A DNA stretch of 36,654 nucleotides from a virus. Location: positions 1 through 36,654 of IMG/VR virus record IMGVR_UViG_3300048837_002321. One strand, written 5' to 3'. The first letter of the stretch is position 1. Each line of letters opens with the position of its first letter. The notes beneath the pieces are model-generated. The model saw nothing but the letters and a program-made list of their open reading frames with translations. It ran no database searches and was not told the origin of the DNA. The translations under genes and the position numbers were made by a program. Positions 25,238 to 36,654 of this stretch are shown here, piece by piece.

Positions 25238-26715
25238 TGGGGCGTCTCCGTGATGCGTGGCACGCGCTCCGTGGCTATGCCGCCGCGCAGGACAGCCGCG
25301 CCTCGAGCTGGGCGGCCTCCGGCAGCAGCGCCACGGCCGAGGTAGGAGCCGCGGCACCCACCGTGGCGCGCCGCGCCCGCGACGCCGTCCGCAACGACCC
25401 GTATGCCGCCCGCATCGTCGATCTCTGGACCGGCAATGCCGTCGGCGCCGGCATCACCACCCGCTGGCCGGACAAGCCGCATGCCGAGGCTTGGCGGCGC
25501 TGGTCCGACAGCACCGCCTGCGACGCCGAGGGCCGGCTCGACCTCTATGGCCTTCAGGCGCTGGTCATGCGGGCCGTGGTGGAAAGCGGAGAGTGCTTCG
25601 TCCGTCTGCTGCCGGCCGACATCACGCCGGCGAACCCGATCGGGCTGCGGCTCCAGGTGCTGGAGAGCGACCACCTCGACACGGCGCGGCAGGGCGCCAT
25701 CGAAGGCGTCCCCACCCTGCAGGGGATCGGGCTGGGCGAGGCCGGTGAGCCGGTCGGCTATTGGCTGCATCGCGAGCATCCCGGGGCGTCCTGGGTCCTG
25801 CCGGGCGGTGCCACCTGGCTGAGCAGCCAGCGCGTCCCCGCCCGCGACGTGCTGCACATCTATCGCAAGCGCCGGCCGGGCCAGCTGCGCGACGTCTCAT
25901 GGCTCGCGCCGGTGCTGACGCGCCTGCGCGACCTCGGCGACTACGAGGCCGCGCTGCTCATGAAAGCCAAGATCGAGGCCTGCCTCGCCGCCGTGGTTTC
26001 GGAGGATGGCGACGACGCCATGACCGGCCCGGCCTCGGGCCTGCTGCGCGACGCGCAGGGCCGCACGGTGGAGAGCTTCGAGCCGGGCATGATCCTCTAT
26101 CGCCGTGGCATGGGGTCCGTGGAGGTGGTGAACCCGTCCGGTGGTGGATCGCATGCTGCCTTTGCCCGCCGCGCGCTGGAGGCGTCGGCCGTGGGCACCG
26201 GCCTGACCTATGACCAGGTCGCGGGTGACCTCACGCAGGCGAATTACTCCTCGCTGCGTGCGGGCAAGATCGAGTTTCGCCGCCTCTGCGAACAGGTGCA
26301 GTACGGCATGCTCATCCCGATGCTGGTACGGCCCATCGCCGACCGGTTCCACGCGCAGGGCGCGCTGCTCGGTCTGTGGGGTGCCGAGGTGCCCGACGGT
26401 CTGTCCCACGTCCCGCCGGCGCACGAGATGATCGACCCGCTCAAGGACACCACCGCACTGATCGCCCAAGTCCGGGCCGGCTTCGTGCCGCAGCCTGAGG
26501 CGGTCGGCGCCTTCGGCTACGACTTCAGTCAGGTGGTCGAGATGATCCGCGAGGCCAACGCCCTGCTCGACGAGGCGGGCCTCGCGCTCGACACCGATCC
26601 GCGCCGGGTCGCGAAGTCTGGCGCGGCCCAGGACGCCGCGCAGATGGCTGCCGTCGAGATTGCAGCGACCGGGGCAGCGGCGCCGCCTCGCCAGGATCCG
26701 CAGCTTCAGGATTGA
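25237..26715 (+). CDS. Phage portal protein, lambda family
   Basis: 492-aa portal subunit. Diagnostic segments are RARDAVRNDPYAARIVDLWTGNAVG near the N-terminus, AVVESGECFVRL, LQVLESDHLD, ARDVLHIYRKRRPGQLRDVSWL, and in the C-terminal half LTYDQVAGDLTQANYSSLRAG. These are typical of lambda gpB-type portals, which form the dodecameric ring for DNA passage and nucleate the prohead. The last ~45 residues are a variable Ala-rich tail. The start ATG shares its A with the preceding TGA. Confidence 0.95.
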   Translation: MGRLRDAWHALRGYAAAQDSRASSWAASGSSATAEVGAAAPTVARRARDAVRNDPYAARIVDLWTGNAVGAGITTRWPDKPHAEAWRRWSDSTACDAEGRLDLYGLQALVMRAVVESGECFVRLLPADITPANPIGLRLQVLESDHLDTARQGAIEGVPTLQGIGLGEAGEPVGYWLHREHPGASWVLPGGATWLSSQRVPARDVLHIYRKRRPGQLRDVSWLAPVLTRLRDLGDYEAALLMKAKIEACLAAVVSEDGDDAMTGPASGLLRDAQGRTVESFEPGMILYRRGMGSVEVVNPSGGGSHAAFARRALEASAVGTGLTYDQVAGDLTQANYSSLRAGKIEFRRLCEQVQYGMLIPMLVRPIADRFHAQGALLGLWGAEVPDGLSHVPPAHEMIDPLKDTTALIAQVRAGFVPQPEAVGAFGYDFSQVVEMIREANALLDEAGLALDTDPRRVAKSGAAQDAAQMAAVEIAATGAAAPPRQDPQLQD

Positions 26716-26718
26716 CCG

Positions 26719-28824
26719 ATGACCGAACCGATCGAACCGGGCGGCAGCGATGCCGCGTCGGCGCCGGCTGCTGCGCCCGATCGACTGCCCACCGCGGGGC
26801 AATCGATCGTGGCCTGCCGCGCGCTCGCCGCGCCCATCACCGTCAATCGTACTGCTCGCACCGTCGAGGTGGTGTGGAGCACCGGCGCCCGCGCCCGCAA
26901 CTTCGTCCCGCCGCTCGGCCCCATCATCGAGGAACTCGACATGCGGCCCGAGGCGGTGCGCATGGACGGGCTGCGCTCAGGCCGTGCGCCGGTGCTGGAC
27001 ACCCACCGGCGTGCCGGCACGCGCGACGTGCTGGGCCGCGTCATCGCCGCCCGCATCGAGGCCGGCCGCGGCTACGCCACGCTCCAGTTCAGCGGCGCCG
27101 ACGACGTCGAGCCGGTCTGGCAGCGCGTCGCGGACGGCACGCTGCAGTCGGTGAGCGTCGGCTACCGGGTGCACCGATACGAGCCCCGGCCGGACGCTGC
27201 CAGCGGCCAGACCATCCACCGCGCGGTGGATTGGGAGCCCTACGAAATCTCGATCGTGCCGGTGCCGGTTGACGGCCTGGCCGTCATCCGCGGCGAGGGC
27301 GACCGGGGCAACCCCGCCGCGGCCATCGAACCTCCCCTGACTGAGGAACCCACCATGCCCGAGACGACGCCGGCCTCGCCGGATCCCGCGCCCGCGCTCC
27401 CCGCGCCGCCCATTGCCCCGTCCCAGGAGACCACGGTGACCACCGCACCCGCCAACCCGCCCACTGTTCCGCCCGAGCCTACGCGCGCCGCACCGCCGCC
27501 CACCGACCTCGAGGCCATCCGCGCCGAGGCCGAGCGCGCCGCAGTCGAGCGCATCGCCGGCTACGAGCCGGTCCTGGCCGCCGCCCGCGGCCTGGTGACC
27601 GTCGACATGCTCGACACCATGCGCGAGGCCGCCATCCGCGACCGCGTCTCGCCCGAGGTGCTGCGCGGTCGGCTGTGGGAGGCCTTCACCAGCGGTGCCG
27701 CGCGCCCGTCTCTGCCGGCCCGCCCCGACACCGGCCCCTCCAACGAGGACCCGTCGCAGCTCCTCGACGCCATGGCCGAGGCGCTCGCCGCCCGCACCAT
27801 GCCTGGCTACCAGGCGCCGGCCACCGGTCGCCACACCGAGTTCCTGGGCTGGCGCCCTTCCGACATGATCGGCGAACTGCTCCGCGCCCGCGGCGAGCGG
27901 AACGTGCCGCGCAACCCGACCATCCTCGCCGAGCGCGCCTTCCACACCACCTCCGACTTCCCGGCGCTGCTCTCGGCCGCGGCCAACAAGATGCTGCTGG
28001 CCGCCTATGCGCCGGCGGCCCCCACCTACCGGACGCTCTTCCTTCGCCGCGACTTCCGCGACTTCAAGCCGCACCGCCACCTGCGGGTCGGCGACTTCCC
28101 GACGCTGCTGCCGCTGTCGGAGAATGGGGAGGTCCAGGCCGGCACCATGTCCGAGAGCCAGGAGCTGGTCTTCCTGCAGACCTTCGCGCGGCGCATCCGC
28201 GTCACGCGGCAGATGCTGGTGAACGACGATCTCGGTGCCTTCACCGACTTCGCCAGCATGATCGGTCGGCGCGTCGCGGACTTCGAGAACGCCACGGCCT
28301 ATGCCTTGCTGAACAGCGCCGGCGGCGATGGGCCGACGCTCATCACCGGAAGCGCCGCCGTCTTCGGAACGGCCGCCGCGCGGGCCAACAAGGCCTCGGC
28401 CGGCACCGCGCTGGACCTGACCAACCTCGCTGTCGGTCGCGCTGCGGTGATGAAGCAAAAGACCCTGGATGGCCTGCCCATCTCCATCGGCGCCTCCATG
28501 CGCCTCCTGGTCGGGCCGAACCAGGAACTTGCCGCGCGCCAGCTCACCGTCTCGGTCCAGGCGACGCAGACCAGCAACGCCAATGTCTATGCGGGCTTCG
28601 TGCAGCCGCTGGTCGAGCCGCTCATCCCGGCCAACCGCTGGTACCTATTCTCCGATCCGCTCGCCGCGCCGGTCTACGTCTACGGCTACCTGAACGGGGC
28701 GGAGGGGCCGCAGGTGACCACCGGCAATGTCCAGGGCGTGGATGGTGTCGAGGTCTCGGTGATCTTCGACTTCGGTGTCGGCGCCATCGACTGGCGCGGC
28801 GCCTGGTTCAACCCGGGCACCTGA
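26719..28824 (+). CDS. Prohead protease/major capsid protein fusion
   Basis: 701-aa fusion. The N-terminal third (about 20-195) is an HK97-type prohead protease: VLDTHRR, VLGRV, DGTLQSVSVGYRV and WEPYEISIVPVPVDG, with the His and Ser of the family in place. Residues about 200-340 are a Pro/Ala-rich linker followed by a charged helical region that may act as scaffold. The C-terminal part (about 350-701) is a Mu gpT-like major capsid protein, with FRDFKPHRHLRVGDFP, RRIRVTRQMLVNDDLG and a closing VIFDFGVGAIDWRGAW. Such protease-capsid fusions are known in this phage group. An in-frame ATG at 27355 with gagg upstream may give a separate capsid precursor. It follows the portal by 3 bases. Confidence 0.93.
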   Translation: MTEPIEPGGSDAASAPAAAPDRLPTAGQSIVACRALAAPITVNRTARTVEVVWSTGARARNFVPPLGPIIEELDMRPEAVRMDGLRSGRAPVLDTHRRAGTRDVLGRVIAARIEAGRGYATLQFSGADDVEPVWQRVADGTLQSVSVGYRVHRYEPRPDAASGQTIHRAVDWEPYEISIVPVPVDGLAVIRGEGDRGNPAAAIEPPLTEEPTMPETTPASPDPAPALPAPPIAPSQETTVTTAPANPPTVPPEPTRAAPPPTDLEAIRAEAERAAVERIAGYEPVLAAARGLVTVDMLDTMREAAIRDRVSPEVLRGRLWEAFTSGAARPSLPARPDTGPSNEDPSQLLDAMAEALAARTMPGYQAPATGRHTEFLGWRPSDMIGELLRARGERNVPRNPTILAERAFHTTSDFPALLSAAANKMLLAAYAPAAPTYRTLFLRRDFRDFKPHRHLRVGDFPTLLPLSENGEVQAGTMSESQELVFLQTFARRIRVTRQMLVNDDLGAFTDFASMIGRRVADFENATAYALLNSAGGDGPTLITGSAAVFGTAAARANKASAGTALDLTNLAVGRAAVMKQKTLDGLPISIGASMRLLVGPNQELAARQLTVSVQATQTSNANVYAGFVQPLVEPLIPANRWYLFSDPLAAPVYVYGYLNGAEGPQVTTGNVQGVDGVEVSVIFDFGVGAIDWRGAWFNPGT

Positions 28825-32169: not shown

Positions 32170-33126
32170 ATGCCCCGTGCCATCGGCGCTAATTGCCGTC
32201 TGCTCATGATCCCCGAGGCGACCTACGGCACCGCGCCCGCGGGCGACTGGCTGCGCATGCCGTTCCTCTCCTGTGACCTTGGCGCCGAGCAGCCGCTGCT
32301 CGATGCCGACGTGATCGGCGTCGGCAGCAGCCGCGATCCCACCGCGCCCTTCCTCGACACCGTCACCGTGCAGGGCCAGGCGGTGGTGCCGGTGGACCTG
32401 GTCAACATCGGCCACTGGCTGCGCCTGCTGCTCGGGCCGCCGACCACCACCGGCACCAGCCCGAACTTCATCCACAGCTTCGGCTCGGGCGCCGCGGCAC
32501 TGCCGAGCAACGCGATCGAGATCGGCTACCCTGACGTGCCGAACTACGATCTCTGTACTGGCGTCCGCGCCGACACGCTGGAGATCGACTTCTCGCCGAC
32601 CGGTCCCGCTACAGCGACCTTCGGGCTGATGGGGCAGGGCTCGACGCGCGGTGCCGCGAGTTCGGGCGGCACACCGACCAGCGCCGCCTACACCGCCTTC
32701 AACAAGGCGCAGGGGGCGATGAGCCGGAACGGTTCCGCGCTCGCCCAGGTGACCGGCGCTAGGCTCACCTACGCGAACGGCATGGAGATGGTGCGCACCA
32801 TTCGCGCCGATCGGAAGGTCGAGGGCGTGGATCCCGGCATCGCGCGCGCCACCGGCCAGATCACCGCGCGCTTCGCCGACACCACGCTGCTGACCCAGGC
32901 GCAGACGAACGCGCCGGCGGAGTTCGCCTTCAGCTACACGATCGACGCGAACCGCAGCCTGACTTTCACGCTGCACGAGGTCTACCTGGCGGTGGCGAAG
33001 ACGCCGGTCGAAGGGCCGGGGGGCGTCGAGGCCAGCTTCGAGGTCCGCGCGGCCTACAACGCCGCGGCGACGCGGATGATGACTGCGGTGCTGAAGAACC
33101 AGATTGTCGGCACGGGTTACGCGTGA
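32170..33126 (+). CDS. Phage tail tube protein
   Basis: 318-aa protein. It starts MPRAIGANCRLLMIPEATYGTAPAGDW, a typical opening for alphaproteobacterial siphophage tube proteins, and is strand-rich throughout, with repeated Thr/Ala-rich turns and a C-terminal SFEVRAAYNAAATRMMTAVLKNQ. The tube subunit forms the stacked rings through which DNA passes. Length fits the group. The start follows a ggag. The next tail gene on this strand is not adjacent as expected but 3.4 kb downstream, because a cargo segment intervenes. Confidence 0.88.
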   Translation: MPRAIGANCRLLMIPEATYGTAPAGDWLRMPFLSCDLGAEQPLLDADVIGVGSSRDPTAPFLDTVTVQGQAVVPVDLVNIGHWLRLLLGPPTTTGTSPNFIHSFGSGAAALPSNAIEIGYPDVPNYDLCTGVRADTLEIDFSPTGPATATFGLMGQGSTRGAASSGGTPTSAAYTAFNKAQGAMSRNGSALAQVTGARLTYANGMEMVRTIRADRKVEGVDPGIARATGQITARFADTTLLTQAQTNAPAEFAFSYTIDANRSLTFTLHEVYLAVAKTPVEGPGGVEASFEVRAAYNAAATRMMTAVLKNQIVGTGYA

Positions 33127-33293
33127 GCCAGAGTACCGACCGGCCGAGCCCGCCGTGGGTAGCGAGCAGAGTCAGTAGTGAACATTGTGGCTGATCCTGC
33201 TCTGCGCGTGAGGATGTAGCCGAGCGAGTCCAAAATGATCCAGCGCAGTTGGCCGCAAGGTGGTTCATCAAACGTCAATTCGACTGGCCTCAT
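33117..33293 (-). CDS. Possible 58-aa minus-strand ORF downstream of the HEPN-candidate gene
   Basis: Short open frame from ATG 33293 to TAA at 33117-33119, overlapping the end of the tail tube gene on the other strand by 10 bases. It contains VELTFDEPPCGQLRWIIL and LGYILTRR, which look more protein-like than random sequence. It starts 22 bases after the stop of the 543-aa gene on the same strand and could be a small partner in the same transcript. There is no clear ribosome-binding site, and a hairpin lies between the two. Low confidence; a gene remnant or chance ORF is equally possible. Confidence 0.22.
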   Translation of the reverse strand: MRPVELTFDEPPCGQLRWIILDSLGYILTRRAGSATMFTTDSARYPRRARPVGTLAHA

Positions 33294-33296
33294 CCG

Positions 33297-33318
33297 CTAG
33301 CCCAGTCTACCGGGCTAG
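33297..33318 (-). terminator. 7-bp-stem hairpin at the end of the 543-aa gene
   Basis: CTAGCCC (33297-33303) and GGGCTAG (33312-33318) pair perfectly around an 8-base loop. The right arm covers the stop codon of the minus-strand gene. It may help terminate that transcript, but there is no clear T-run. Confidence 0.45.
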
Positions 33319-34946
33319 GGCTTCGGCGGGTTTACGAGCATCTGCTTTCGGCAGAACATCATGGCCGCGAGGAAGTCGCGGGTCGCCGCGTGAAGTTCCT
33401 CCTCAGTCCAATTGGCCATAGCCTTGTGCGTGCCGTTGTTCCGGTTGAGCACCACACGCAGCAGCGTTTGGCCGAGTTCGCGCTTCGGTAGGTTGGACGG
33501 GATCGCCTCGATCTCCTTGAGTCGGTCAGCCCGAGTTTTGCCGCCCCTGGTGCTGACAAGGCTCTTGTTCTTGACGAGAATGTCGCAGACGTCGGCGTCC
33601 TCACCCCAGAAGCGGATCATCTTCCCCATCAGCATGTCGTCGGTGACCACCCCCACCTCGTCGAACATTTCATTCATCAGATGTTCGAAGGTGATGGCGA
33701 GCGATTCCACCTCCTTGGCCAGCGCACTGCGGTCTACGGGATCATTGCTGAACTGGCGTTTCAGCATCTCCTCGATCGACAGGTGCAGCTTGAACGAACG
33801 GCGCTGTTCCAGCCAGTCGCAGAGGTCGGTTACGTCCCCGTCGGCCAGAGAAAGGAGGCCAGCCGTGGGGGCGTGCGGCAGGACACTGGTTCGCAGCGAT
33901 CGTTCAAGATTATCGCGGGCGTCGCGCTCCCAGTCAGGGAAGATGACGTCCAGCGCCGGTTCGAAGTGGCCGGTCGCGCGACCGACCTTCTCCGCCAGCG
34001 TCGCAAAGTCGATCCTGTAGGCCGCCATGGCCATGCGCGCTGCGAGGAAAATCTGGCGTTTATACTCGTTGGCGATCTCTACGCGGCCGCGATGGCTCCA
34101 ATCGTCCCATCGCTCGCAGAGATAGCGAAGGAAGGCGATGACGCGGTCTTGCGTTGCGCCGATGGAGCTGAGCGCTTGCTCTGCCGCCCTGCGATGGGCG
34201 CTCTCAAAGTCAATTTGTTCGGACTCAGTGAATGGTCGCGGACAGCCCGCATGGTTCCGCGAGAGAGCCGCGTGCTTGCGCTGACGGACCGCATCGACGC
34301 GTGCGGCCGCATCAAAGTACGCGCTCCAGTTAAGGCCCGCCGTCAGCCCGCGGGGCGCGTCGAACGGGACGTGCATGAAGTACCGCAATTGCGCGATTGC
34401 GGGCAGGCCGTCGCGGCAGACAAGCGCCACTACTTCGGGTCGGCGTGTGTCTATGTTGAGTCGGACGCCCATCTCTGCGGCATCGGCCACCAGCAGGGCC
34501 TGCCAACCGTGGAAGTAGGTGTCCACGGCGTCCCCCGTGTAGAGGGGCTCCTCGCTCGGCCCACGGATGTTGGTGCGGAACTCTGCCCATGGCTGAAAGG
34601 GCTCCGCGGTGATGTCCTTCGAAATTTGCGCCGCTCCGGGCGGGTCCTTCATGTCGAGCGGATGCTCGACCTCAGGATCTGCGTCGAACCGGCTCCACTT
34701 GCGTATCGCCTCGTTCAGTGCTCCGGCCTGCGCCCGCTCCTCATTGGTGACCGGTGACAGGGGGCTTCCGCCGTGTTCCTCGACCACAAGGGCGCGCGGC
34801 CAGCGAATGCGGGCCACTGGCACGACTATGCGCTGCTCTTCCAGGAACTCGAGGAAGCGCTCCTGAAACATGTTTCCGGTGATGCGCAGGTCGGCCAGCA
34901 GGCGGCCAAACTCTGCCGGAGATATGTAGCGACCGCTCGCGGCCAT
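33315..34946 (-). CDS. Large unknown protein with C-terminal HEPN-type RNase motif (candidate defence protein)
   Basis: 543-aa cytoplasmic-looking protein, no family recognised over its full length. The N-terminal 220 residues mix strand and helix (PEVVALVCRDGLPAIAQLRYF); the rest is mainly helical. Near the C-terminus, R502-N503-x3-H507 lies between two helices (LGQTLLRVVLN before, EEELHAATRDFLAAMMFC after). This is the R-polar-x3-H signature and helix setting of HEPN ribonuclease domains, which are common in anti-phage and toxin-antitoxin proteins. The start ATG at 34946 follows gaggag. It lies on the strand opposite to the tail genes, between tail tube and tail assembly genes. Defence is inference from motif and setting. 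Confidence 0.78.
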   Translation of the reverse strand: MAASGRYISPAEFGRLLADLRITGNMFQERFLEFLEEQRIVVPVARIRWPRALVVEEHGGSPLSPVTNEERAQAGALNEAIRKWSRFDADPEVEHPLDMKDPPGAAQISKDITAEPFQPWAEFRTNIRGPSEEPLYTGDAVDTYFHGWQALLVADAAEMGVRLNIDTRRPEVVALVCRDGLPAIAQLRYFMHVPFDAPRGLTAGLNWSAYFDAAARVDAVRQRKHAALSRNHAGCPRPFTESEQIDFESAHRRAAEQALSSIGATQDRVIAFLRYLCERWDDWSHRGRVEIANEYKRQIFLAARMAMAAYRIDFATLAEKVGRATGHFEPALDVIFPDWERDARDNLERSLRTSVLPHAPTAGLLSLADGDVTDLCDWLEQRRSFKLHLSIEEMLKRQFSNDPVDRSALAKEVESLAITFEHLMNEMFDEVGVVTDDMLMGKMIRFWGEDADVCDILVKNKSLVSTRGGKTRADRLKEIEAIPSNLPKRELGQTLLRVVLNRNNGTHKAMANWTEEELHAATRDFLAAMMFCRKQMLVNPPKP

Positions 34947-35279
34947 CGACTCCTCGCTTACCGACTATTGACCAACACATCTGGCAAAGTTCAGCCGGAA
35001 GCGCCAGCCTGGAGCCACGAAGTGCCGCTCAGGTCGGGAACGGCTGTCCGACCTTGTCAGCGCTGTGCTCTTAGTCTCGTGCCGCAGGACCGGGTTGCTA
35101 ATGCTCTGATGAAGGTCGAGCCTTTGCTCACCTCTGTCGACCCGGGCTCAAGCACAAAGCCCCACGATCCAGCGGCATGGCGCGTTCCGCCTGCCTATGC
35201 GCGCTCGGATCCGAATCCGGACGTTCAGCCTACGGCCGGGACGAGCGCTGAGCGCGGCGCGCATTTCCGACGCCGGCGA
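34947..35279. other. Intergenic stretch between the two cargo genes
   Basis: 333 bases between the DUF4238 stop and the start of the HEPN-candidate gene. No convincing gene is seen on either strand. It should hold the promoter of the 543-aa gene if the two are not co-transcribed, but no clear -35/-10 pair stands out. Confidence 0.5.
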
Positions 35280-36197
35280 CTACCGCTGCGGCAGCGGATC
35301 CCCGGTGACCTGCGACATCACCTTCTCGATGGCGCCCTTGGCCCCGACGATCCATCGCCGGCTCCTTGCTGCCGATTCATAGTTAATCGCGCTGGGCTCG
35401 TATCCGCGCGCCGGCCTTGAGCCGATGTTCTGGGTACTCGGAGACTTCGCTGGCACGAGGATGAGCGCCTTGGAGTCGCTAAGCGGCGCGCGCAGTCCCA
35501 TGCCAAGCTGGCCAGGATCGAAGAGCACGCCCTGGTCGCCCAGGACGAAGCTATGCGGAGGCGTGCTTATCAGCGTCCAATCAAGGCCGAGGAGTGCGTC
35601 GCGAAGTTTCTCGCGTCCGTCCGGCAACCTGATGAGATCCGTGAAGGGGAGATCGACCATCCCGCTGCTCGCCTCGAGTGCGAGCTGGATCCGGGCGATC
35701 TCTAGCGCCGCCTGCTTCGGACCGAGACGGAGGATGTGATCGTATTCGCTCTCCGCAATTAGATCCCCGAAGAACGTCTGGAACTCCTCGAAGCTTGCCG
35801 CCGAGAAGGTCTCGATAAAGAGCCGAGAGAGGAACCGGTGTGCCGTCCGCGAGTAGTCGAACAAGCGCTGCGGATCCCGCATGATCTGGACCGAGAGAAA
35901 CTCGGCCATACGCCTCCTCATCGCCTCCGACAGGTCGCCTGCCAGGATCGCGGACATCGTCGTGGCACCGTCGTCGTCGACCTTTTGGAGATCTGCGGTC
36001 TCGATCGAGGTGTCGTCGAGGCCACCGGGATCGAGCGTGTAAAGGTCCCTAATCTTCATGATCTTCCTGGAAGACCGCGCCTTCACGTCGCCCTGATCCC
36101 AATCATATGCGTATAGATGCCCGTCAGCATCCTTGAAGCGCTTGATCCATGATTGGGTGACGAAGTGGTGTTCGCGGGGTGGATTTCCGCTGGTCAT
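35280..36197 (-). CDS. DUF4238 domain-containing protein
   Basis: 305-aa protein of the DUF4238 type. The signature is near the N-terminus: REHHFVTQSWIKRFKDADGHLYAYD, equivalent to the H-[HY]-x-P/T-Q-x2-[LI]-x-R-F motif of the family. A long helical middle (EAMRRRMAEFLSVQIMRDPQ, then a Phe/Glu-rich segment) and a beta-rich C-terminal part (LDWTLISTPPHSFVLGDQGVLFD, ALILVPAKSP) follow. DUF4238 proteins are scattered in mobile and accessory DNA; function is not established. The start at 36197 has ggagag upstream; an in-frame ATG at 36281 lacks one. It shares orientation with the 543-aa gene downstream. Confidence 0.85.
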   Translation of the reverse strand: MTSGNPPREHHFVTQSWIKRFKDADGHLYAYDWDQGDVKARSSRKIMKIRDLYTLDPGGLDDTSIETADLQKVDDDGATTMSAILAGDLSEAMRRRMAEFLSVQIMRDPQRLFDYSRTAHRFLSRLFIETFSAASFEEFQTFFGDLIAESEYDHILRLGPKQAALEIARIQLALEASSGMVDLPFTDLIRLPDGREKLRDALLGLDWTLISTPPHSFVLGDQGVLFDPGQLGMGLRAPLSDSKALILVPAKSPSTQNIGSRPARGYEPSAINYESAARSRRWIVGAKGAIEKVMSQVTGDPLPQR

Positions 36198-36543
36198 CAA
36201 GATGCTCTCCGCGCTCGATCTGGCGTGTGGAAGTTTCCGCTCGAAGCCCATCCTCTCGACGCTGTCGCGTGGGCAAGTCAACCGTCACGCCGAATTTAAA
36301 GTCCCGCGACCTTTCGCAATTCCATTGCGACGCTAGCGCGTCGTCAAAGGCGCAATTTAGGAATCGTCCGGTGGGCCCGTCGAGGGCTGAATTTGGCCAG
36401 ATACGTGTTCTTCGAACTCGGCCGTTCATCTTTGGTTATCGCGAGTAGCCTCGCTGAACGAGCCCCATCATTGTCCGGGTATCCGTCGCTGGCTTCCACT
36501 GCCAAGAGCTTGCGCGGATCAAGCCTCAGCCACGGAGTAGCGC
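36198..36543. other. Intergenic region with adjacent inverted repeats upstream of DUF4238 and the tail gene
   Basis: 346 bases between divergent genes, AT-richer than the phage genes. CGCAAT (36315-36320) and ATTGCG (36324-36329) flank a TCC spacer, and immediately next to it CGACGC (36328-36333) and GCGTCG (36338-36343) flank TAGC. These could be operators or the trace of an insertion end. No gene seen. Confidence 0.5.
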
Positions 36544-36654
36544 ATGTTGATCCTCGACCTCCTCGCCGAGCCGTACTGGCTCGACCTGCCGCGCGGCGTC
36601 CGCGTGGAGATCCGCCCTGTGACCACCGCGGTGATGGCCGCCGCCCAGGCCGCT
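36544..36654 (+). CDS. Tail assembly chaperone-like protein, 5' part only
   Basis: The first 37 codons of a gene cut by the window end. It starts MLILDLLAEPYWLDLPRGV and continues VEIRPVTTAVMAAAQAA. I recall this kind of opening in tail-assembly proteins encoded directly after the tail tube gene in alphaproteobacterial siphophages. The ATG is preceded by ggag with suitable spacing. Length and any frameshift product cannot be judged. Confidence 0.6.
   Translation, partial: MLILDLLAEPYWLDLPRGVRVEIRPVTTAVMAAAQAA

Follow-up and report, generated by a model that had tools for sequence, protein, structure and literature searches.

The virus record IMGVR_UViG_3300048837_002321, a stretch of 36,654 bases (the window), carries 3.4 kb with minus-strand genes only between its tail tube gene and its tail assembly chaperone gene, and this region very probably occupies a hot spot for prophage accessory genes (moron/defence) that reaches from the tube stop codon to the chaperone start codon. 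The slot belongs to a family of temperate siphophages of Roseomonas-type Acetobacteraceae; it can be empty, it has precise edges and different phages carry unrelated content there, and sequence comparisons indicate that cargo has been transferred between diverged phages, the breakpoints lying in the tail genes on either side. It is a further example of the known prophage hot spots, notable for the antisense bias of its cargo and for its readable scars of recombination. An insertion hot spot for exchangeable cargo had been proposed in an initial annotation of the window, and the 52 unrelated cargo groups, the empty sites and the defence families found among the relatives bear this out.

Spacing and edges of the slot

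The left anchor of the slot in the window is the tail tube gene (32170–33126, plus strand; PF18906 Phage_tube_2, 4.8e-51; phrog_290, 2.6e-52), which is kept up to its stop codon among the relatives, and the right anchor is the start of the tail assembly chaperone gene (36544–36654, plus strand), recognised by homologous chaperone starts in the relatives and cut after 37 codons by the window end. The gene at 36544 was correctly called a tail gene in the initial annotation, since the full-length chaperone homologue of locus L002 (125 amino acids, aa) matches gp15, the tail assembly chaperone of Rhodobacter phage RcKemmy (38% over 125 aa, 2e-18). The genes preceding the chaperone have the same order in RcKemmy and in Nostoc phage Nsp-JY21. 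The tube end at 33126 and the next tail gene at 36544 were thus both confirmed, giving a gap of 3417 nucleotides (nt) that holds, as had also been described, only two genes, both on the minus strand: cargo gene 1, encoding a 543-aa candidate HEPN-type protein (33315–34946), and cargo gene 2, encoding a DUF4238 protein (35280–36281).

Searches with the tube protein gave 67 loci from isolate and metagenome-assembled genomes, nearly all of them Roseomonas-type Acetobacteraceae with a few bins bearing other names, together with viral loci (the best 80 of 114), so that 147 relatives, the window and the window's own copy (L001) made up 149 sequences. Both the tube end and the chaperone start are held by 124 of these, and 104 of the 124 are distinct, the window included; the other 25, with L001 (the window itself) among them, were left out because the tube end or the chaperone start is missing on the piece. 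Two of those left out, L044 and L134, extend 4.9 kb past the tube gene with no chaperone and may carry longer cargo.

Across the 104 distinct regions the distance between tube and chaperone ranges from -1 to 7087 nt with a median of 1237 nt, being 667–762 nt in 33 regions, above 2 kb in 31, above 3 kb in 12 and above 300 nt in 101, in keeping with the small size (about 1–5 kb) of the prophage hot spots of Rousset et al. 2022. The control junctions are short: the tail terminator and the tube gene lie 12–37 nt apart in 97 of 97 measured relatives, and the distances are at most 187 nt between g30949 and the terminator (n = 91), at most 13 nt between the attachment gene and g30632 (n = 46) and at most 2 nt between g30632 and g30949 (n = 47).

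Empty sites, which the initial annotation had proposed to look for, were found in three loci and four cultured phages. In L131 and L132 the distance is -1 nt, the tube stop codon TGA overlapping the chaperone ATG, and in L097 it is 13 nt. Tube and chaperone are likewise adjacent in RcKemmy (13 nt), RcOceanus (12 nt) and RcFrancesLouise (12 nt) and overlap by one base in Nsp-JY21; of 16 phage records matched by the tube, these four were examined.

The slot is bounded exactly by the tube stop codon and the chaperone start codon. In 52 non-redundant cargos the information content per position drops from 1.47 bit over the 60 nt preceding the tube stop to 0.10 bit behind it, and rises from 0.20 bit over the 60 nt preceding the chaperone start to 1.74 bit behind it. 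On the cargo side, clear conservation is confined to the ribosome-binding site of the chaperone, with GGAG in the last 20 nt of 37 of the 52 cargos versus 1 of 52 in a control stretch. A search against Rfam gave no match, and the repeats in the slot look ordinary. Several of the units in L015, L027, L013, L055 and L110 finish in an inverted repeat, ATGTCA..TGACAT, about 50 nt from the chaperone start; lying within the last ~70 nt before that start, it is a likely antitoxin operator.

Content of the slot in the relatives

The 101 filled sites fall into 52 unrelated cargo groups, which share no 80 nt of DNA with one another, and 46 of the groups are singletons. The sole large group comprises 43 regions and is joined by small antisense modules. 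ParD/ParE (F1/F2) occur in 24 regions (Pfam 3.9e-12 and 1.9e-13, one representative each), F3/F4, a Phd-type antitoxin (1.1e-16) and its unnamed 147-aa partner, in 16, and F5/F6, a ribbon-helix-helix protein and its likewise unnamed partner, in 4; altogether the F1–F6 modules are present in 39 of the 104 regions, the ParDE and Phd-type toxin-antitoxin modules being the commonest.

Other defence families were found at the same position. These include a 1453-aa NACHT protein with the NCBIfam name HyoA (L073; 1378 bits, cut-off 1200), a TIR-NLR protein with TPR (L049; 2.1e-27), a protein kinase of the PD-T4-6/mads6 kind (L017; 3.2e-37), a SIR2-like protein with a large LmuB-like ATPase (L077; LmuB 1.9e-33), an AlbA-type Schlafen protein (L109), a caspase (L141; 4.5e-39), a HEPN/Toprim protein (L019; 6.2e-55), an HNH protein (L012) and ABC-3C CTD2 (8.2e-50) with an SMC-like ATPase (L024). 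The proposal of exchangeable cargo stands, with the refinement that the slot is not reserved for defence, toxin-antitoxin modules being commonest and metabolic and signalling genes also occurring.

The pooled family scans covered 93 hand-chosen cargo open reading frames (ORFs) and the two window genes, so that the family list is no full census, and the assignment of a family to a cargo is firm only for proteins scanned singly, pooled-scan families being given as among the matches listed. Single scans of many cargo proteins gave no match, for example in L050, L026, L081 and L005 (one marginal match in L005). Host-like metabolic or transporter genes inside the tail operon were observed in L100 (MR_MLE) and in L035, L065 and L138, the latter three judged from the pooled scan. 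The G+C content (GC) of the cargo is below that of the tube gene in 88 of the 101 regions, with medians of 0.626 versus 0.697.

The two cargo genes of the window

The cargo genes of the window have a GC of 0.63 and 0.61 and a GC at third codon positions (GC3) of 0.78 each, compared with 0.70–0.73 and 0.87–0.91 for seven phage genes. The slot spacers, with a GC of 0.59–0.64, are AT-richer than these phage genes, in agreement with the initial annotation. The left spacer (33127–33314, GC 0.60) lies 3' of the tube stop, the second (34947–35279, 333 nt, GC 0.64) separates the two cargo genes, and the right spacer (36282–36543) terminates in the ribosome-binding site of the chaperone, GGAG at 36534–36537.

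The 543-aa protein gave no match in Pfam, PADLOC or NCBIfam and one weak match in PHROG. A single-protein search of 299 sampled genomes of the order returned 2 matches, and a full-length homologue, 57–58% identical, is present in one of these genomes (L151); partial or distant homologues were found on three rhizobial conjugative plasmids. One of them, a C-terminal homologue on the Rhizobium etli plasmid pRetIE4771e (L149), adjoins an AAA ATPase, a helicase, an HNH endonuclease and a HEPN-associated protein, possibly a defence cluster. No relative of the 543-aa or the DUF4238 protein was found in the viral collection, and a six-member profile of the former found none in 385 sampled genomes of the class, a sample with no known positive that carries little weight. 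Alignment of six homologues revealed 18 invariant columns, among them R502 and H507 (6 of 6), which delimit an RxxxxH motif (RNNGTH; 33426–33443, minus strand; codon positions numbered from the ATG at 34946). The Rx4H spacing is found in four of the six rows, and the two Bradyrhizobium rows are one residue shorter, where another R two residues upstream would give Rx5H. Motifs of the form Rx4-6H, such as RxxxxH, are characteristic of HEPN nucleases.

The DUF4238 protein is 333 aa long from the first start codon and 305 aa from the ATG at 36197, and it matches PF14022 (2.4e-16; 60.4 bits, cut-off 27) with residues 38–314 on profile positions 2–278 of 281. Its match to the PADLOC model DUF4238-Pers is weak (0.0047), a search of 200 genomes of the order gave 2 partial matches, and a structure model built with no alignment had a mean predicted local distance difference test (pLDDT) score of 33 and was unusable. 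In PMC9122126, strong protection against T7 is reported for a lone DUF4238 protein of the P2 hot spot; the likeness to the window consists in the same Pfam family name and a prophage hot spot, whereas the window protein is weak on the PADLOC model and the host and target phages differ.

Taken from sequence, an antiviral role of the window cargo is somewhat favoured. The cargo would be expressed in the lysogen from minus-strand promoters of its own and would amount to one or two antiviral genes, and the 543-aa protein would be a HEPN-type RNase halting the growth of infected cells. That the two proteins form one two-gene defence system, instead of two separately acquired modules, is an unlikely alternative, though the strongest of those considered. 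The genes are adjacent, on the same strand and of equal GC3, as such a system would predict; the 333-nt spacer means that they need not form one operon, no DUF4238-like gene is among the listed neighbours of the homologue in L151 or annotated beside the plasmid homologues, and stacked separate modules are common in the slot.

Exchange of cargo between phages

In L052 and L075 the cargo is 100% identical over 1037 nt and the tube genes are 84% identical. When compared in 100-nt steps, identity is 76–92% through the tube gene and 100% from a point within its last ~130 nt onwards, and the identical run continues across the cargo and for ~900 nt past it. The same step is shown by L028/L030 and, less cleanly, by L027/L015, and the converse case of near-identical flanks around unrelated cargo was found once at the thresholds used (L104/L110; tube 95.1%, chaperone 95.5%).

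Pieces of the flanking genes were also found inside the cargo. In L059 and L067 a complete ParDE unit of 704 nt precedes 29 nt of chaperone start, behind which older cargo lies, and L067 has in addition 66 nt of tube end, up to the stop codon, directly before an F5/F6 module. A decayed 200-nt tube end lies inside the cargo of L089, an internal chaperone piece is present in L102 and L105, and L031 has a tube end inside its cargo. The DNA search for such fossil flanks gave 13 rows, of which three weak opposite-strand rows (L027, L029, L084) were set aside and two, L024 (5e-5) and the 0.001 row of L067, are regarded as doubtful. Behind the chaperone scar of L059 (gap positions 705–1312) an antitoxin-like F3 gene remains with no F4 partner called, and the older toxin therefore seems to have been lost when the ParDE unit was stacked in front.

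Identical cargo beside diverged flanks, breakpoints inside the tube gene and fossil flanks together point to recombination through the flanking genes and not to transposition, and exchange through the tube and chaperone genes is, judged from these alignments, probable. Co-resident or co-infecting phages of the family would swap cargo by recombination in these conserved genes, and occasional illegitimate, off-register events would stack a new module beside the old one, leaving a fossil tube end or chaperone start between the modules. The length of the cargo differs among co-resident prophages, for instance in Neoroseomonas alba, which harbours four with 1801, 754, 2476 and 743 nt.

Entry of the cargo as a self-mobile element (insertion sequence, transposon or satellite) that prefers this site is improbable. 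Two scanned cargo members, taken from their first residues and lengths to be two genes of L069, do match transposase domains; at the ends of the 52 non-redundant cargos, however, no direct or inverted repeats longer than in the controls were found, the cargo ends share nothing but the ribosome-binding site, and the fossil pieces and the breakpoints inside the tube gene imply recombination borne by the flanks. Less probable still, and hardly credible, is vertical inheritance of the two window genes as a regular component of the tail module. Both do sit between two tail genes of the same phage, but this reading would lead one to expect both genes in all relatives, with codon use like that of the phage, which is not what was observed: the other 103 regions contain neither of them, gene order is intact without them in the empty relatives and the cultured phages, and they are on the opposite strand with a lower GC3. 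Chimeric assembly joining unrelated host DNA into a phage contig is practically negligible, as the arrangement recurs, always at the same two codons, in 104 distinct regions that include isolate genomes with contigs of hundreds of kb, even if many relatives are draft or metagenome contigs.

Orientation of the cargo

In the window the cargo genes are on the minus strand and the tail genes on the plus strand, so that the cargo lies antisense within the late operon, and the same orientation prevails among the relatives. Before counting, three ORFs of the second gene caller in L002 and L034 were replaced by the antisense genes of the first caller. Among protein families of at least 90 aa, 73 are antisense to the tail genes versus 29 sense (one-sided binomial 8e-6), and for proteins of at least 250 aa the numbers are 39 and 20 families (one-sided binomial 0.009); counted by cargo group, 39 are mainly antisense versus 13 (2e-4). 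The 104 regions comprise 77 with antisense genes only, 11 with sense genes only, 10 with both, 3 with no called gene and 3 that are empty.

A comparable arrangement is described in PMC11364771 for taiEcA of phi80, an immune gene that lies antisense in the late operon and is made in the lysogen, and whose protein drops when the late activator Q is supplied. The likeness to this noncontiguous operon is the antisense position of an immune gene in a late operon; the difference is that in phi80 a single gene is paired with its cognate anti-immune gene and controlled by Q, while here changing, unrelated genes, known from their sequence, occupy a tail region. By analogy it is tentatively proposed that the antisense placement would let late tail transcription silence the slot cargo during the phage's own lytic cycle. 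A broader proposal, rather doubtful as yet, is that the slot has been selected for its position, antisense cargo being expressed in the lysogen and silenced once late tail transcription sets in, and that it would function as an integrase-free cassette dock. Such selection would explain the 52 unrelated, mostly antisense groups at one codon boundary and the thriving toxin-antitoxin modules. Nearly any toxic or abortive module could then be carried with no harm to the phage's own burst, and new modules would be stacked by way of the tube end and the chaperone start that they bring along.

Several observations weigh against a defence hot spot with antiviral cargo in the window that is silenced by late transcription. 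Some cargo is plainly non-defence, namely KaiC with a histidine kinase/receiver (L002), PNPase (L018), an MR_MLE enzyme (L100) and a zinc alcohol dehydrogenase (L034), and the families MFS_1, TctC, SBP_bac_5 and TauE are among the matches listed in the pooled scan. Of the HEPN candidate proposed initially, the C-terminal RxxxxH has turned out to be conserved, while the HEPN assignment is unproven since the label rests on this six-residue motif; a single-sequence structure model of the 543-aa protein had a mean pLDDT of 40 and was unusable, and a profile search against solved structures gave no HEPN protein and nothing meaningful (best E-value 0.044). A scan with the sigma-70 consensus found no promoter at either window gene, and no terminator, where promoters of the host group may differ. 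No other phage of the set has the window cargo, so that the evidence of mobility comes from other cargo of the slot. The orientation is a bias and not a rule, given the 11 plus-strand-only and 10 mixed regions. For phi80, PMC11364771 reports that the taiEcA level was unchanged after mitomycin induction and fell only with Q, and silencing of the slot is therefore inferred.

Neighbouring genes and other variable junctions

A serine recombinase gene is located at the left end of the window (Resolvase, 1.5e-39), and further genes encode a large terminase, a lambda-type portal, a capsid-protease fusion, a head-tail attachment protein and the tail terminator (phrog_4204, 8.5e-20). Two other junctions, portal–capsid and chaperone–tape measure, are variable in a minority of loci. 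The portal–capsid junction (window equivalent 26715–26719) exceeds 300 nt in 17 of 46 loci and reaches 1911 nt; ten loci have a common plus-strand ORF of ~460–500 aa there, others different, shorter inserts. The chaperone–tape measure junction is usually ~315 nt and longer in a few of 89 loci. A second cargo spot lies there, with an antisense pair in 7 of the 89 (L006, L019, L025, L028, L059, L069 and L115) that consists of a ~200-aa protein beginning ISTFTAFFDANVFYGARL, resembling a PIN toxin, and a likely helix-turn-helix partner; other inserts at this spot were seen in L013, L067, L081 and L140.

Relation to known hot spots and implications

The hot spots of P2, between the replication gene A and the portal gene Q, and of P4, between psu and int, are the closest comparison drawn here (Rousset et al. 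2022; PMC9122126). They resemble the present slot in being small loci between two conserved phage genes with a high turnover, mostly with a different system in each phage, in that several modules per site are possible, and in holding DUF4238 among other antiviral families. They differ in being adjacent to cos, with P4 cargo in either orientation, whereas the slot described here is in the tail operon of Acetobacteraceae phages, antisense-biased and dominated by toxin-antitoxin modules.

The cargo lies between two genes that are adjacent in related phages and differs from its neighbours in base composition, as in the classical definition of a moron. The morons of lambdoid and Mu-like phages, such as HK97 gp15 and Tab of JBD26, are likewise extra genes between two late genes that benefit the lysogen; these are single small genes, and the present slot is up to 7.1 kb and multi-gene. 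Tab is situated in the late operon between the terminase genes (PMC10884400). Among the titles and abstracts listed by searches of the open-access PubMed Central (PMC) literature, none described a hot spot between tube and chaperone or one in Roseomonas prophages.

With a different insert in nearly every phage, many of the inserts being toxin-antitoxin pairs or likely antiviral genes, the slot offers a ready target in the search for new bacterial immune systems. The anchors are short, conserved and easily found, and the slot can therefore be mined for candidate immune genes in genomes as well as in small viral contigs; 46 of the 52 cargo groups were each seen once here. The fossil flanks provide a readable record of how cargo is stacked with no integrase, and the strand bias makes the general idea that late transcription may silence antisense immune cargo testable across many unrelated cargos at one position.

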